Source of the DNA: Clostridia bacterium
GTDB lineage: Bacteria > Bacillota > Clostridia > Christensenellales > Aristaeellaceae
Reading direction: 5' to 3'
DNA length: 50,510 nt
NCBI GenBank assembly: GCA_017481825.1
Contig: JAFUOR010000030.1
Coordinates: forward strand, 1 to 50,510
Shown here: piece after piece, positions 2,973-48,272 of the stretch
Numbering within the stretch: the stretch's first letter is position 1
How the letters are laid out: every line of letters begins with the position of its first letter
Notes under the pieces: model-generated
What the model saw: the letters and a program-made list of their open reading frames with translations, nothing else
What the model was told of the DNA's origin: nothing
Databases searched by the model: none
Made by a program: the position numbers and the translations under genes

Positions 2973-4235
2973 ATGGGCATGACCATGACACAGAAAATCC
3001 TCGCCGCCCACGCAGGTCTTCCCTCCGTCAAGGCCGGCGACCTGATCGAGGCCAAGCTCGATCTCGTCCTGGGCAATGACGTGACCACCCCCGTGGCCGT
3101 CGACGTGTTTGACAAGGCCGGCTTCGACCGCGTGTTTGACAAGGACAAGATCGCCATCGTGCTGGATCATTACACCCCCTGCAAGGACATCAAGTCCGCC
3201 CAGCTGTGCAAAACCGCCCGTGATTTTGCCCGCCGCTTTGACATCACCCACTTCTACGATGTGGGCAACGTGGGCATTGAGCACGCGCTGCTGCCGGAGA
3301 AGGGCATCGTCGCCCCCGGCGAGGTCATCATCGGTGCGGACAGCCACACCTGCACCTACGGCGCCATCGGCGCGTTCTCCACGGGCGTGGGCTCCACCGA
3401 CATGGCTGCCGGTATGGCCGCTGGCGAGAACTGGTTCAAGGTGCCCAGCGCCATCAAGGTGGTGCTGACTGGCAAAATGAGCAAGTGGGTCTCCGGCAAG
3501 GACGTGATTCTCCACCTGATCGGCCTGATCGGCGTGGATGGCGCGCTGTACAAGTCCATTGAGTTCACCGGCCCCGGCGTCGCGGAACTGACCATGGACG
3601 ACCGCTTCACCATTGCCAACATGGCCATCGAGGCCGGCGGCAAGAACGGCATCTTCCCCGTGGATGAGAAGACCATCGAGTATGTCACAGGCCGTGTTGA
3701 CCGCGAGTGGAAGGCCTATGAGGCCGATCCCGATGCAGAATACGAACAGGTGGTGGAGATCAACCTGAGCGAGCTCAAGCCCACCGTGTCCCTGCCCCAC
3801 CTGCCCTCCAACACCAAGACCGTCGACCAGGTCGCAGGCCTGCCCATCGATCAGGTGGTCATCGGCTCCTGTACCAATGGCCGCATCTCCGATATGCGCA
3901 TTGCGGCGGAAATTCTCAAGGGCCGCAAGGTCGCCGATGGCGTGCGCTGCATCGTCATCCCCGCGACCCAGGATATCTACATGGAGTGCATCAAGCAGGG
4001 CTACACGCTGATCTTTATCGAGGCGGGCTGCGCGGTCAGCACCCCCACCTGCGGTCCCTGCCTGGGCGGCCACATGGGCTGCATGTGCGAGGGCGAGCGT
4101 GCCGTCGCCACCACCAACCGCAATTTCGTTGGCCGCATGGGTCACGTCAAGAGCGAGGTCATCCTGGCCTCCCCCGCCGTGGCAGCAGCGTCCGCTGTCA
4201 AGGGCTGCGTCGCCTGCCCCTGTGAGCTTGAATAA
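2973..4235 (+). CDS. leuC: 3-isopropylmalate dehydratase large subunit
   Basis: LeuC is the [4Fe-4S] subunit of isopropylmalate isomerase, which works with LeuD to convert 2- to 3-isopropylmalate. At 420 residues it belongs to the shorter LeuC class common in Clostridia and archaea rather than the longer enterobacterial form. Visible aconitase-family signatures are [20 protein letters not shown], the cluster motif VIGSCTNGR and the second Cys pair in [11 protein letters not shown]. The start follows an AGGAAAGAAGGA purine-rich stretch. A 91-bp gap separates it from leuA with no obvious terminator, and leuD follows after 15 bp. Confidence 0.96.
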
Positions 4236-5274: not shown

Positions 5275-6348
5275 ATGGAAAAGAATATCGCCCTTCTCCG
5301 CGGCGACGGCATCGGCCCGGAGATCGTAGACAGCGCCGTCAAGGTGCTGGAGGTGGTCGCTGAGAAGTTCGGCCACACGTTCAACTTCATGCCCTACCTG
5401 ATCGGCGGCGCGGCCATCGACGAGACCGGCAATCCCCTGCCCCAGGAAACCATCGACGGCTGTCTGGCTGCAGACAGCGTGCTGCTGGGCGCGGTGGGCG
5501 GTCCCAAGTGGGATACCATGCCCGCCAATCTTCGCCCGGAGAAAGGCCTGCTGGGCATCCGCGCGGCAATGGGCCTGTACACCAACCTGCGCCCCGCCAA
5601 GCTCTACCCTGCCCTAAAGGATGAATGCCCCCTGCGTGCCGATATCGTCGCCCAGGGCTTCGACCTGATGATGGTACGCGAGCTGACCGGCGGCATCTAC
5701 TTCGGTGAGCGGGGCCGCCGCGAGGGCAAACACGGCCCCGAGGCCTATGACACCGAAGCTTACAGCGTGATGGAAGTGGAGCGCATTGCCCGCGCAGCCT
5801 TCGAGTCCGCCCGCAAGCGCCGCAAGAACGTCATCTCCATCGACAAGGCCAACGTCCTGGAAACCAGCCGCCTGTGGCGCGAGACCATCCACCGCATCGC
5901 TGAGGAGTACCCGGACGTCACCTGCACCGATATGCTGGTGGACAACGCCGCCATGCAGCTGGTGCGCCGTCCGAGCCAGTTCGACGTGGTGGTAACCAGC
6001 AACATGTTCGGCGACATTCTCTCTGACGAGGCCAGCCAGATCACCGGTTCCATCGGCATGCTCCCCAGCGCATCCCTGGGGGCGACGAACCGCGGCCTTT
6101 ACGAGCCCATCCACGGCTCCGCTCCGGACATCGCCGGGCAGAACAAGGCCAACCCCATCGCCACCATCCTCTCCGCCGCCATGATGCTGCGCTACGCCTT
6201 CGACATGATGGATGAAGCCGACTGCATCGAAAAGGCCGTTGACGCCGTCCTGAACGACGGCATCCGCACTGCCGATATCGTGGGCAGCTCCGGCATTGCG
6301 CCCATCGGCTGCGTAGAGATGACCGAAGAGGTCATCAAGCGCCTCTGA
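5275..6348 (+). CDS. leuB: 3-isopropylmalate dehydrogenase
   Basis: LeuB oxidatively decarboxylates 3-isopropylmalate to 2-oxoisocaproate with NAD+, the last leucine-specific dehydrogenase step. The 357-residue protein begins with [13 protein letters not shown] and carries [14 protein letters not shown]. The iso(citrate/propylmalate) dehydrogenase signature follows as [20 protein letters not shown], then the nicotinamide and adenosine-binding [21 protein letters not shown]. Length is standard. The start is placed by AAAGGGAGG eleven bases upstream. It continues the leu operon after the inserted GNAT gene; a hairpin without a U-tract follows its stop. Confidence 0.97.
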
Positions 6349-6361
6349 TTGTACACTTTAT

Positions 6362-6390
6362 GCCTGCATGGCCGATTTTGCCATGCAGGC
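6362..6390 (+). terminator. hairpin after leuB, weak terminator or attenuator
   Basis: A perfect 11-bp stem (GCCTGCATGGC / GCCATGCAGGC) with a 7-base loop starts 13 bases after the leuB stop. No run of T follows, so complete termination is unlikely. It may protect the leu mRNA 3' end or reduce transcription into the DUF815 ATPase and ilvA genes. Confidence 0.5.
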
Positions 6391-6459
6391 TGCATTCCGT
6401 TTAGAAAGAAGACTCCTCCGTCAGCCGTCGCTGACAGCTCCTTTGGAAGGAAGTAACAC

Positions 6460-30131: not shown

Positions 30132-31820
30132 TCAGAACAGCCGCACCGTCATGTTCTCAAACAGCAGCCCCTGCTGGATGGCCTGGAAATAGGCGTTGCC
30201 GCTGTCGGTGTGGATCACGTTGACGGGAATGAAGGATTCCGTGCTGCCCTCGACCACCACCACGCCGGTCATGCCGTCCTGGGTGTAGATGGCACGCTCG
30301 GGCACCATGAGGGTATCCATCGATTCACCCAGCACAGCCTCGCAGGTGCGCATATAGAGCACGGGCTTGACGGAGCTGGTCACCTTCAGGCGCACCAGCA
30401 GCTCGCCGCCGGAGCGGGTGAAGTTCACCACCTCGGCGGAAACATGGGTGTTCTCAAATCGCTCCAGCTGCAATTCGTACACCTGGCCGTTAACGGGATT
30501 CCAGGTCGTATCCTTGGACAGGAAGAGGACGTACCACTCATTGTCCTTCACCATGCGGTAGATGGTAGTCTTGCCCTTCTGTGCCAGGGATAGCTCAGGC
30601 TTGGCGCCATTGATCATATTGCGCACGGCGATAGGATCGAAGGTCTGGTAGTTGTTGCTGGTCAATCCGTACTCATAGCCATCGGAGTAGAAGGACACGA
30701 TGGCCTCGCCCGTGGCAGTGTACTGCTTGGTCCAGCTGTCGATGCGCTGGGTCTGGCTGGTCTCGTCGTCGTAGAGGCGGGAGTAGCGCTGGTCAGCGGC
30801 GTACTTCTGCTTGAGGTACTGCTGGCGCGCCTCGATGGCGGTGGAGAGCAGCGCCTCCTGATTGGCAAGGCTGCCGCGGGCACCGGCGATCATGTCGCGG
30901 ACCTCCTTTGCGCGGGTCAGCACGTCGGAGTTCACGCGGGTCAGCTTCGCATCGTAGGTCGTTTCGCCCTCCAGCAGCTCTTTCTGATAATCGCGGATCT
31001 GCTCGCGGTATTCCAGCAGCGTGTTCATCTCACGGGTAGAATAACCGGAGGAATACACCTTGCAGATGTAGTCGCCGCGCACGATAGATGCACCCTCCTC
31101 CGCATCGTAGAGGACGGAGGTCACACCCTCCGCGTCATAGGGCGCCTCGTTGCGTACGATGAGGCAATCACCCGTATGGGTGGCGCTCAGACTGCCGGAA
31201 GCGATGGTGCCGTATTTGGCGGCCTCAGGGGCAAACTGGCTGTAAAGGTACCAGCCTGCAAAGCCCAGGGCCACCAGAATCACCGCCACATGAAAGAAGG
31301 TCAGCTTCAACCGGGGCTTAACGGGCTTGCGCTCCTGGGGCGGGAAGCCGGCAGGAGGCTGTTCCATCATCTGCTGCTCCTGATTGAACAGGTGCTGATA
31401 TCCCTCGTCGGAATAAGGCTGCTGCTGATAGGTAGCATAGCCCGGCTGCTGGGGATAGCCGCCATAGGGCTGCTGATAGGGCGGCATCTGCCCGGTGTAG
31501 CCATTCTGCGCGTCGCCATAGCCCTGGTGCATGCCGGAAACAGGCGAAGTTCCGGAAACAGACGAAGTTCCGGAAACAGACGAAGTCTGCTGTTGAGGGA
31601 TGTTCATCTGCGGAACATAACCCACCGGCGGGCGGAGCGAGCCCGTATTGGGTGACACCGGTTGCACCGGAGGCATCGGTTGCACCGGAGGCACCGGTTG
31701 CACCGGAGGCATCGGCTGCACCGGAGGCATCGGCTGCCCATACGGTTGCTGGCCATAATCCTGCTGCCCGGGCTGGCCATACGGCTGCTGCCCCTGCGGC
31801 GGATAGAACTGGTTATCCAT
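30132..31820 (-). CDS. HlyD-like membrane protein with proline/glutamine-rich N-terminus
   Basis: A 562-residue single-pass membrane protein. The first 165 residues are low complexity, rich in Pro, Gln, Gly and Tyr, with a MPPVQP hexapeptide repeat and an SVSGTS repeat. A membrane helix follows (LTFFHVAVILVALGFAGWYL). The outer part resembles HlyD-type adaptors: a barrel-sandwich half near SGSLSATHTGDCLIVRNEA, a coiled-coil hairpin near residues 260-340, and the second half with GQVYELQLERFENTHVSAEV and VPERAIYTQDGMTGVVVV. HlyD-like genes upstream of yggS and sepF are common in Clostridia; their partner is unknown. There is no transporter gene nearby. Confidence 0.78.
   Translation of the reverse strand: MDNQFYPPQGQQPYGQPGQQDYGQQPYGQPMPPVQPMPPVQPVPPVQPMPPVQPVSPNTGSLRPPVGYVPQMNIPQQQTSSVSGTSSVSGTSPVSGMHQGYGDAQNGYTGQMPPYQQPYGGYPQQPGYATYQQQPYSDEGYQHLFNQEQQMMEQPPAGFPPQERKPVKPRLKLTFFHVAVILVALGFAGWYLYSQFAPEAAKYGTIASGSLSATHTGDCLIVRNEAPYDAEGVTSVLYDAEEGASIVRGDYICKVYSSGYSTREMNTLLEYREQIRDYQKELLEGETTYDAKLTRVNSDVLTRAKEVRDMIAGARGSLANQEALLSTAIEARQQYLKQKYAADQRYSRLYDDETSQTQRIDSWTKQYTATGEAIVSFYSDGYEYGLTSNNYQTFDPIAVRNMINGAKPELSLAQKGKTTIYRMVKDNEWYVLFLSKDTTWNPVNGQVYELQLERFENTHVSAEVVNFTRSGGELLVRLKVTSSVKPVLYMRTCEAVLGESMDTLMVPERAIYTQDGMTGVVVVEGSTESFIPVNVIHTDSGNAYFQAIQQGLLFENMTVRLF
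31536..31589 (-). repeat. 18-bp tandem repeat in the HlyD-like gene (three units)
   Basis: Three units of GGAAACAGACGAAGTTCC (plus-strand reading), nearly identical, encode the repeated SVSGTS segment in the disordered N-terminal part. Such repeats can change copy number by slippage. Confidence 0.8.
31662..31733 (-). repeat. 18-bp tandem repeat in the HlyD-like gene (four units)
   Basis: Four units of TTGCACCGGAGGCATCGG or close variants (plus-strand reading) encode tandem MPPVQP/VPPVQP hexapeptides near residue 30-55 of the protein. Confidence 0.85.
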
Positions 31821-46097: not shown

Positions 46098-48272
46098 TCA
46101 TTCCTTCTTCGCTGCCCACGCCATCACCGCCTGCACGGCGGTCTTGTTCATGCCCGGCACGGCCATCAGCTGCTCCTCTGTGGCCTCGCGGATGGCTTTG
46201 AGGGAGCCGAGCCTGGTCAGCAGGGCCTTGCGGCGCTTGGGGCCGATGCCGGGAATGTCCTCCAGCTGACTGTGGATGCTCGCCTTACCGCGAAGCCCCC
46301 GGTGGTGCGTGATACAGAAGCGGTGCGCCTCGTCGCGGATGCGTTGGATCAGGTGCAGCTCCGGCGTGTGGTGATCCAGAAGGATGGGCTCCTCGCGATC
46401 AGGCAGGAATATCTCCTCCTGCTTTTTCGCCAGGCCGAACATGGCTACTTCGGCCTGCCCCACGCCTTCCGGCGCGTCGCAGGCTTCGCAAGCCGATTGC
46501 AAGCAATCTCCTTGCTCGTCGGGCTTGAGCCCGACCTTCAATTCGGCCTGCCCCACGCCTTCCGGCGCGTCGCAGGCTTCGCAAGCCGATTGCAAGCAAT
46601 CTCCTTGCTCGTCAGGCTTGAGCCCGACCTTCAATTCGGCCTGCCCCATGCCTTCCGGCGCGTCGCAGGCTTCGCAAGCCGATTGCAAGCAATCTCCTTG
46701 CTCGTTGGGCTTGAGCCCGACCTTCACTTTCACCCCCATATCCAGCAGTGCCTGCCGGGCAAAGCGCAGCTGCTGGGGGCCGCCGTCGATCAGAACCAGA
46801 TCGGGCAGATCACTGAATTTGCCGCCGATGGGGCTAAGCCCTGCGGCTTCACGTTCAGCCTTTTCGCGGAGGCCATGCTCAAAGCGCCGGCCCAGAACCT
46901 CGTTCAGGGAGGCAAAATCGTTCGCGCCCTCGACGGTTTTGATGCGGAAGCGGCGGTATTCCTTCTTCGCAGCCACGCCATCGATAAAAACCACCATGCT
47001 GGCAACGCTCAGCACACCCTGGGTGTTGGAGATGTCATAGCCCTCGATGCGCCGTGGCGGATTCGGCAGGCCAAGGGCGCGTCCCAGAGCTGCCGCAGCA
47101 CCGGTGGTGCGCTCCTCTCTGATGGATGCGCGGGCGTTACGCTTTTCCAGGGCGTCGGCAGCGTTCTTGGCAGCCAGCAGGATCAGGTCGTGCTTCTCGC
47201 CGCGCTTGGGCGTGGCCAGGCTCACAGCGCTCCCCTTCTGCTGACGCAGCCACAATTCAAGCTGGTCCTTCGTCCCCTCGGGCAAGGACTGAACCAGCAC
47301 ATGGCGCGGAATGAGGTTGCCGTCCTCGTAGTACTGGGTGATGAACTCAGCCATCACCTCGCCCGCATCCTCGCTGCCCTCGCGCGGGAGGGCGAAATGG
47401 TCGCCGCCGATCATGCGTCCGCCCCGGACGTAGAAAATATGCACCATCGCGTCCAGACCATCCTGGGCCAGGGCGATGATATCCTGCTCGCTCCTGTCGG
47501 TCTGGATGGCAATCTGGCGTTCCATCAGGCCCTCCACATCGCGGATCTTGTCGCGAAGGGCGGCGGCGCGCTCGTACTGCATTCTGGCAGCGCAGTCCAT
47601 CATGTCCTTGCGCAGCACCTTGAGCACCTGCTGGTAGTCTCCCCCCAGGAAGGCCAGCACACCGTCCATCATGTCCCAGTAGGCCTCTTCGGTACACTTG
47701 CCCGCACAGGGCGCCATGCACTTGCCAATCTCATAGTTGACGCAGGGCCGGGAGGGCGTCTTCAGCGGCAGTTCCTTGCGGCAGGTTCGCAGCGGAAACA
47801 CGCCGCGCACCGCCTCGATCACCTGCCTGACTGCCGTAGCGCCGATGTAGGGGCCGAAGTACTTCACACCGTCCTTCTGCCGTCCGGACTCCTGTTCTAT
47901 GCGCCGTGCCAGCTCCAGACGAGGAAAGGGCTCCTTCAAATTCACTCGCAGGTAGGGATAATGCTTGTCATCCTTCAGGAGGATGTTATAGTACGGCTTG
48001 TGCAGCTTGATGAGGTTGCACTCCAGGCACAGCGCCTCCAGATTGGAATCGCACAGGAGGATATCGAAATCGTCGATATGACTGATCATCGCCGCAACCT
48101 TGGGGGTGTGCTCCGTATCACGGAAATAGGAGCGCACGCGGTTCTTCAAATTGACCGCCTTGCCGACATAGATGATGGTGCCCTCCGCATCCTTCATCAG
48201 GTAGCAGCCAGGGCTTTCGGGGAGCATGCTGATCTTGGTTTCGAGCTTCTCACCCCAGTTGATTTTAGGCAT
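46098..48272 (-). CDS. uvrC: excinuclease ABC subunit C with an inserted repeat array
   Basis: UvrC makes both cuts in nucleotide excision repair. The 724-residue protein has the GIY-YIG nuclease (SPGCYLMKDAEGTIIYVGKA, from residue 18), the cysteine cluster CVNYEIGKCMAPCAGKC, the UVR motif RKDMMDCAARMQYERAAALR, the RNase H-like nuclease (GYDISNTQGVLSVASMVVFI; DLVLIDGGPQQLRFA) and C-terminal helix-hairpin-helix (LEDIPGIGPKRRKALLTRLG). Residues about 515-607 are three near-identical 31-residue repeats between VKVKVGLKP and AMFGLAKKQEEIFLP, inside the second nuclease domain. Without them the protein is 631 residues, a normal length. ATG 48272 is chosen by homology; AAAGGACGG lies upstream, and the frame continues upstream to 48476 through promoter and repeat DNA. 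Confidence 0.95.
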   Translation of the reverse strand: MPKINWGEKLETKISMLPESPGCYLMKDAEGTIIYVGKAVNLKNRVRSYFRDTEHTPKVAAMISHIDDFDILLCDSNLEALCLECNLIKLHKPYYNILLKDDKHYPYLRVNLKEPFPRLELARRIEQESGRQKDGVKYFGPYIGATAVRQVIEAVRGVFPLRTCRKELPLKTPSRPCVNYEIGKCMAPCAGKCTEEAYWDMMDGVLAFLGGDYQQVLKVLRKDMMDCAARMQYERAAALRDKIRDVEGLMERQIAIQTDRSEQDIIALAQDGLDAMVHIFYVRGGRMIGGDHFALPREGSEDAGEVMAEFITQYYEDGNLIPRHVLVQSLPEGTKDQLELWLRQQKGSAVSLATPKRGEKHDLILLAAKNAADALEKRNARASIREERTTGAAAALGRALGLPNPPRRIEGYDISNTQGVLSVASMVVFIDGVAAKKEYRRFRIKTVEGANDFASLNEVLGRRFEHGLREKAEREAAGLSPIGGKFSDLPDLVLIDGGPQQLRFARQALLDMGVKVKVGLKPNEQGDCLQSACEACDAPEGMGQAELKVGLKPDEQGDCLQSACEACDAPEGVGQAELKVGLKPDEQGDCLQSACEACDAPEGVGQAEVAMFGLAKKQEEIFLPDREEPILLDHHTPELHLIQRIRDEAHRFCITHHRGLRGKASIHSQLEDIPGIGPKRRKALLTRLGSLKAIREATEEQLMAVPGMNKTAVQAVMAWAAKKE
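46451..46729 (-). repeat. three 93-bp in-frame tandem palindromic repeats inside uvrC
   Basis: Units start at 46451, 46544 and 46637 and differ at only a few bases. Each holds three hairpins: GGCTT-CGC-AAGCC, GATTGC-AA-GCAATC and GTCGGGCT-TG-AGCCCGAC. Each codes for 31 residues including GDCLQSACEACDAPEG, three cysteines per unit. The changes GTCGGG, GTCAGG and GTTGGG in the last hairpin show the copies have begun to diverge. Confidence 0.93.

Follow-up and report, generated by a model that had tools for sequence, protein, structure and literature searches.

Evidence for an RPE-like palindromic element inserted in tandem and in frame into UvrC of a gut Clostridia bacterium

The UvrC protein of an uncultured gut Clostridia bacterium (GCA_017481825.1, contig JAFUOR010000030.1) carries 93 extra residues, and these very probably derive from three tandem copies of a dispersed non-coding palindromic element that entered uvrC in frame. 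The stretch of DNA analyzed as a whole, referred to as the window, is 50,510 nt long, and the genome that it belongs to is labelled G000. In it, uvrC (excinuclease subunit C, 724 aa, assigned from its ORF and Pfam matches) occupies positions 46098..48272 of the minus strand, and the insert, which consists of three tandem 93-bp units on the same strand, occupies 46449..46727; among the 18 genus genomes, 13 have no insert at this site. The explanation of this segment as a palindromic mobile repeat comparable to the Rickettsia palindromic element (RPE), put forward in the initial annotation, is supported by the recurrence of the element in and between genes of the genome and the genus, by the empty or variable state of the uvrC site, and by the covariation of its three-hairpin structure.

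The ORF, the predicted fold, and the Pfam matches confirmed that three 93-bp units with three hairpins each extend the RNase H domain in frame by 93 residues; the initial annotation placed this insert correctly except that its coordinates (46451..46729) were wrong by 2 bases. The units lie head to tail at 46449-46541, 46542-46634, and 46635-46727, the second and third being 99% and 97% identical to the first, and each is read as 31 residues with three cysteines, in agreement with the claim that a unit of 31 codons keeps the frame. The minus strand of unit 46449-46541 folds into three hairpins at -52.1 kcal/mol versus -35.4 kcal/mol (sd 3.2) in 200 shuffles (z -5.1). The 88-position element model (R1) matched the minus strand three times, at 46636..46723 (copy 1 in gene order, 67.8 bits), 46543..46630 (copy 2, 71.8 bits), and 46450..46537 (copy 3, 75.3 bits). 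Within copy 3, the fold places hairpin 1 at 46518..46535 (7-bp stem, covarying helix 1), hairpin 2 at 46488..46515 (outer and inner stems of 5 bp each, covarying helices 3 and 4), and hairpin 3 at 46453..46484 (outer and inner stems of 6 bp each, helix 5), all on the minus strand.

The 724-aa protein produced Pfam matches to GIY-YIG, UVR, UvrC_RNaseH, UvrC_RNaseH_dom, and HHH, and the match to UvrC_RNaseH_dom (PF08459) was split in two by the insert. Without the 93 residues the protein is 631 aa long, exactly as the insert-free UvrC of the relative G001 (L028), which upholds the earlier statement that it is of normal size once the repeats are removed. In an alignment with 53 other UvrC sequences (A2), the window protein departed from none of the 52 columns that are invariant in the others and from 1 of the 123 columns with at least 90% conservation, and a search of the assembled genome revealed no other UvrC match. 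The C-terminal UvrC structures 3c65, 8b0q, and 2nrt showed no insertion at this point when compared with an insert-free relative, and the window protein aligned to 3c65 in two pieces, one on each side of the insert. Judged by its sequence, UvrC with the insert looks intact and is probably active, and the additional residues may be tolerated as a surface loop. The nearest UvrC relatives are recorded as Clostridia, Clostridiales, or Christensenellaceae, and those with an isolate label come mostly from the gut of goat, sheep, deer, or other ruminants.

Alignment to relatives, which the initial annotation had proposed as a check, showed that the uvrC site is variable and that the segment is not a conserved domain of all of them. 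The insert measures 279 bp in G000 and 93 bp in G007, the only 2 genomes with full units, 60 bp in G002, 30 bp in G010, and 9 bp in G011; it is absent from the 13 others, in which the site resembles that of the outgroups and shows no scar. All these length differences are multiples of 3. The pieces in G002 and G010 are in-frame remnants of the unit, since only 0-5 of 1000 shuffles aligned to it as well, while the 9 bp of G011 could not be assigned to the element (130 and 271 of 1000 shuffles were as good). In a uvrC tree from which the insert had been removed, all five genomes with extra sequence at the site (an insert, a piece, or an addition) fell into one nine-genome clade (support 100/99) that also holds four genomes without insert. 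Because full insert, pieces, and absence are mixed within one clade, the state of the site changes fast and does not follow the tree.

The same comparison bears on the concern that a repeat was misjoined into uvrC during assembly, or that the number of units is wrong. The window contig is one of 163 in a metagenome assembly (90.9% complete, 5.4% contaminated), on which the unit number rests, elements stand at several contig ends, and the units differ from one another at only 1-3 bases. However, the independently assembled G007 has a single unit at the identical base position that differs in its letters (90% identity to the window unit), diverged pieces occupy the same site in G002 and G010, the site lies within one large contig whose flanking sequence fits UvrC to either side, and every indel is a multiple of 3. 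We thus consider an assembly artefact very unlikely.

Codons were compared between G000 and G007 in the insert and in its flanks. Unit 3 of G000 differed from the G007 unit at 9 of 31 codons, 1 synonymously and 8 nonsynonymously, and units 1 and 2 had 1 of 10 and 2 of 10 synonymous differences, respectively. In the uvrC flanks, synonymous changes accounted for 166 of 235 differing codons on the 5' side and 32 of 44 on the 3' side (198 synonymous and 81 not in total), a share that differs from that of unit 3 with a Fisher p of 4e-4. Since changes are mostly nonsynonymous in the insert and mostly synonymous in the flanks, purifying selection acts on the enzyme and not on the inserted peptide. 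Corresponding comparisons of an insert in the queA gene gave 2/5, 2/6, and 2/4 synonymous changes, numbers too small to tell.

These data weigh heavily against the idea that UvrC acquired the insert as a functional module, such as a cysteine-rich loop that binds metal or DNA and is kept for the sake of the protein. The three cysteines per unit are shared by G000 and the lone G007 unit, the ORF is still open, and the conserved UvrC columns are retained, all of which a functional module would explain. Yet only 2 of the 18 genomes have full units, nonsynonymous changes make up 8 of the 9 codon differences in the insert but 81 of 279 in the flanks, the element is read in other genes in several frames and in either orientation as peptides that are not related, and the cysteine codons are made of hairpin bases that are conserved for pairing. 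We therefore regard this explanation as highly improbable. The cysteines of the uvrC insert are by-products of the hairpin sequence: the three per unit noted in the initial annotation are present, but its suggestion of metal binding is unsupported because most other genic copies read one cysteine only and because the uvrC insert shows no sign of protein-level constraint.

When the unit was searched for elsewhere, as the initial annotation had also advised, it was found to recur in G000 and across the genus, both between and inside genes. Relatives of the unit elsewhere in G000 are 75-80% identical to it. The element is approximately 88 bp long (88 columns) with three hairpins, and nearly all copies measure 77-91 bp. 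These dimensions come from a profile search over the fetched loci and from an alignment (A1) of 42 of 53 trimmed copies, which leaves out 11 near-duplicates or copies with odd ends and has four ends placed by hand. A covariance model detected 25 copies in G000 and matched 16 of the 18 genomes in the genus, among them G016 with at least 148 copies (150 candidates scored), G002 with 98, G017 with 50, G007 with 31, G012 with 25, and G006 with 20; the same search revealed no copy in G008 and G014. In a sample of the family, 16 of 150 genomes matched; 11 of these belong to 10 genera other than that of G000, and under stricter filters none of 290 other genomes sampled from the class did. An Rfam search with four element loci gave no match to the element. 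Elements are often located at contig ends (e.g., G002:C79, G017:C83, and G001:C52), so assembly probably breaks at them and their number is probably underestimated. Two loci of G000 (L217 and L218, on contigs C145 and C148) are identical over 3085 bases, a sign of a duplicated or strain-mixed assembly.

RNAalifold analysis of the 42 aligned copies predicted 20 base pairs, 14 of which display two-sided compensatory changes. Paired bases were found in 98.9% of 839 cells compared to 88.3% in shuffles, and none of 500 shuffles scored as high; the copies were collected by sequence alone and pairing was thus not built in, although the shuffle tests are inflated by the relatedness of the copies. Sliding the pair partners by 1-3 columns reduced the paired cells to 28-35%. 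The conserved feature of the element across the family is therefore its nucleic-acid hairpin structure. Within individual genes this is less uniform. In queA of G007 and G017, changes are mainly in loops (1 of 56 paired versus 5 of 29 unpaired positions), whereas in the uvrC unit 6 of 64 stem positions and 3 of 24 loop positions changed, with one clean compensatory pair only. Because uvrC stems changed about as often as loops, the structure is kept family-wide but not demonstrably within uvrC. The aligned copies form two subfamilies, with G and A (21/42) or T and T (18/42) at columns 25 and 58 and nearly no exceptions; columns 25-26 and 57-58 may form tandem G-A mismatches beside a helix, or the split may reflect descent only.

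To determine how the copies are placed relative to genes, we examined 135 copies, which remained from 149 model matches in the loci after removal of 14 that were duplicated, cut, or weak. Outside coding-like ORFs, or unproven, were 113 of them. The codon score placed 19 copies in coding-like ORFs, and three were added by hand, one in L159 on the basis of relatives with an empty site and two in L158 on the basis of an ORF with Pfam matches, resulting in 22 genic copies at 16 sites, in frame in 14 ORFs (uvrC and 13 others). These 22 are partly nonindependent (uvrC, queA, and a tandem pair), and because loci were chosen by match strength the genic fraction is not a census. Pfam matches at E 0.001 were obtained for 13 of the 14 ORFs, that of L161 being under the curated cut-off, and none for L184. 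The element lies within or splits a Pfam domain in eight ORFs, which encode UvrC, QueA (Queuosine_synth), a GltD-like enzyme (Pyr_redox_2), a response regulator, an ABC transporter ATPase, a radical SAM enzyme, a beta-lactamase-fold enzyme, and a glycoside hydrolase; the names queA and gltD were assigned from the Pfam domains. In G000 nearly all other copies are outside genes, the exceptions being a copy on C153 that overlaps an ABC transporter ORF at its end and a copy on C60 that overlaps an ORF at its start. The radical SAM/B12-binding ORF of L158 (623-2500, G016:C57) contains three elements, one of them inverted relative to the others.

Filled and empty sites were also found at three of these other genes. 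In queA, an insert of 87-90 bp occupies one site in 3 of the 16 genomes that have the gene (G007, G016, and G017); the 13 genes without it were matched in two pieces, and 8 of these 13 were empty when read letter by letter. The gltD-like gene contains 90 bp in 1 of 18 genomes, an empty site was read in 9 of the remaining 17, and the response regulator contains 93 bp in G016 only, directly after the phospho-acceptor loop residues DIMLP, with six orthologues empty and that of G005 lacking the motif. Insert lengths at the three genes are 87, 90, 90, 90, and 93 bp. The genomes with a filled queA site do not form one clade of the uvrC tree. Because presence at both uvrC and queA departs from this tree, several clean losses, recombination between lineages, or repeated hits must have occurred.

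Genic copies differ from the others in length, as 18 of 22 measure 3n+1 bp compared to 45 of 103 others (p 0.002). An intrinsic coding ability of the element was rejected, since non-genic copies are open in the commonest genic frame no more often (39/103) than shuffles (0.44). As part of the same well-favored explanation, genic copies are very probably those that passed a filter, having a length divisible by 3 and no stop in the frame read. A role as an RNA regulator acting from one strand was also dismissed: 14 copies share the strand of the genes and 8 have the opposite one, without clear bias, a count based on the 22 copies between co-directional genes that does not include 41 near a locus edge and 11 far from genes. 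In 6 of 60 loci scanned (L186, L194, L220, L174, L176, and L175) elements are present in tRNA gene clusters, in 5 of them on the tRNA strand, and L174 (G017), L176 (G007), and L220 (G000) have a common element between tRNA-His and tRNA-Arg.

Head-to-tail arrays of the element are common, occurring at 20 loci with spacings of 84-106. The spacing is 93, a multiple of 3, in both arrays inside ORFs (uvrC and L184) and also in several arrays not placed in an ORF. The element thus forms arrays generally, and those that grow in frame are a subset arising by chance. The history that we favor for uvrC would begin with the in-frame entry of one copy of the element, about 82-91 bp long, between two conserved RNase H blocks that tolerate extra residues, after which the element would have been present in the lineage of the nine-genome clade, presumably from a single origin. 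Unequal recombination or slippage between direct repeats may then have produced three units, and the frame would have been kept at each step because unit and joint together make 93 bp. Elsewhere in the clade, in-frame deletions would have left remnants or the segment would be absent, and translation of the element would be a by-product.

The closest comparison named in the initial annotation, the RPE, proved apt. According to PMC2229807 and PMC10969869, which relay Ogata et al. 2000, 2002, and 2005, RPEs are 105-146 or approximately 150 bp long and lie in frame in many genes, and a guanylate kinase carrying one is produced and active with altered substrate affinity; PMC2229807 also describes a single long stem-loop and terminal inverted repeats of 12 bp. 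As far as these accounts go, our element resembles RPEs in being short, palindromic, dispersed between genes, and in the host reading frame within unrelated conserved genes, and in its patchy distribution among relatives (25 copies in G000, and empty sites at uvrC, queA, the gltD-like gene, and the response regulator). It is set apart from RPEs proper, as these are described there, by its approximately 88 bp, its three separate hairpins, the lack of a visible terminal inverted repeat, its GC-rich gut Clostridia host, and its tandem amplification at uvrC. MITEs such as ERIC and Correia, as described in PMC2229807 and PMC10969869, are likewise small, non-autonomous, structured, and sometimes in frame in genes; at three filled/empty sites, which are diverged, no target-site duplication or terminal repeat of our element was discernible by eye.

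That palindromic repeats rarely enter essential repair genes, as the initial annotation held, is contradicted by PMC3733652, which reports that uvrA, uvrB, polymerase, and recBCD genes can contain GTAG and CGTC REPs, that elements of the CGTC class are present in repair genes including R. conorii uvrB, and that RPE-4 and RPE-6 are equivalent to CGTC REPs. Hairpin 1 of our element, read on the other strand, has a 7-8 bp stem and a short loop and starts with CGTC in 23 of 42 copies, as in that class. The tag is missing in 19 of 42, A-T is present at stem positions 1-2 in only 3 of 42, and the three-hairpin units are head to tail whereas CGTC elements are mostly head-head dimers (PMC3733652); by the definition given there (a CGTC, TGTC, or CCTC tag plus A-T at stem positions 1-2) the element falls outside the CGTC REPs. 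A second possibility is that it belongs to the GTAG class of REPs, BIMEs, and REPtrons and is moved by a RAYT-type Y1 transposase. In 19 of 42 copies GTAG is located at the base of hairpin 3, and REPs of this class are, according to PMC3733652, mostly intergenic with some inside genes, uvr genes among them. However, 21 of 42 copies have GAAG instead, far from the terminal GTAG in more than 90% of members that defines the class, the element is a three-hairpin composite, and no associated Y1 transposase was found: PF01797 has matches in 6 of the 18 genus genomes, but G000 and G016, the genome with most copies, gave none (the assemblies being incomplete), and no element lies within approximately 1.5 kb on each side of the 7 Y1 loci. 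Membership of this class is accordingly very improbable, and a Y1 transposase is unsupported as mobilizer.

The element is probably mobile. One copy used as a query at E 0.01 gave no match in plasmid and phage records. Three IMG/VR contigs carry the element (L325 at 3268-3354, L326 at 6310-6393, and L327 at both ends), which makes phage-borne transfer a candidate route; L325 is from a 46.6-kb contig in which phage DNA helicase and DNA polymerase genes adjoin the element. Phage-borne transfer and homologous recombination may account for the patchy sharing of sites. As L327 has elements at both ends, the repeat may be what closes it.

In-frame palindromic elements have been described mainly in intracellular Rickettsiales and in some Proteobacteria, and uncultured gut Clostridia show the same behavior here. 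The phenomenon is thus known in kind, and the element family, the host group, and the copy-number series at one repair gene appear to be new. Searches of the open-access literature for in-frame palindromic elements, uvrC, Firmicutes, and Christensenellales listed no description of the element, a weak negative because they covered open-access papers only. The natural uvrC series (three units, one unit, remnants, and none) offers a direct measure of the cost of an insertion to an enzyme, and of how an insertion grows and is lost. It is also a caution that inserts in metagenome-derived proteins can be repeats rather than domains. A broader and more speculative proposal, which we rate as possible but rather doubtful, is that a family-restricted three-hairpin composite, spreading without a Y1 transposase, again and again introduces, multiplies, and shortens in-frame segments of housekeeping enzymes in free-living gut Clostridia; if true, protein length would evolve there through copy-number change of a selfish nucleic-acid structure. 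Elsewhere in the window, tandem repeats of 9-24 bp at 31534-31793 encode a stretch rich in proline, valine, and serine near the start of a 570-residue minus-strand ORF.
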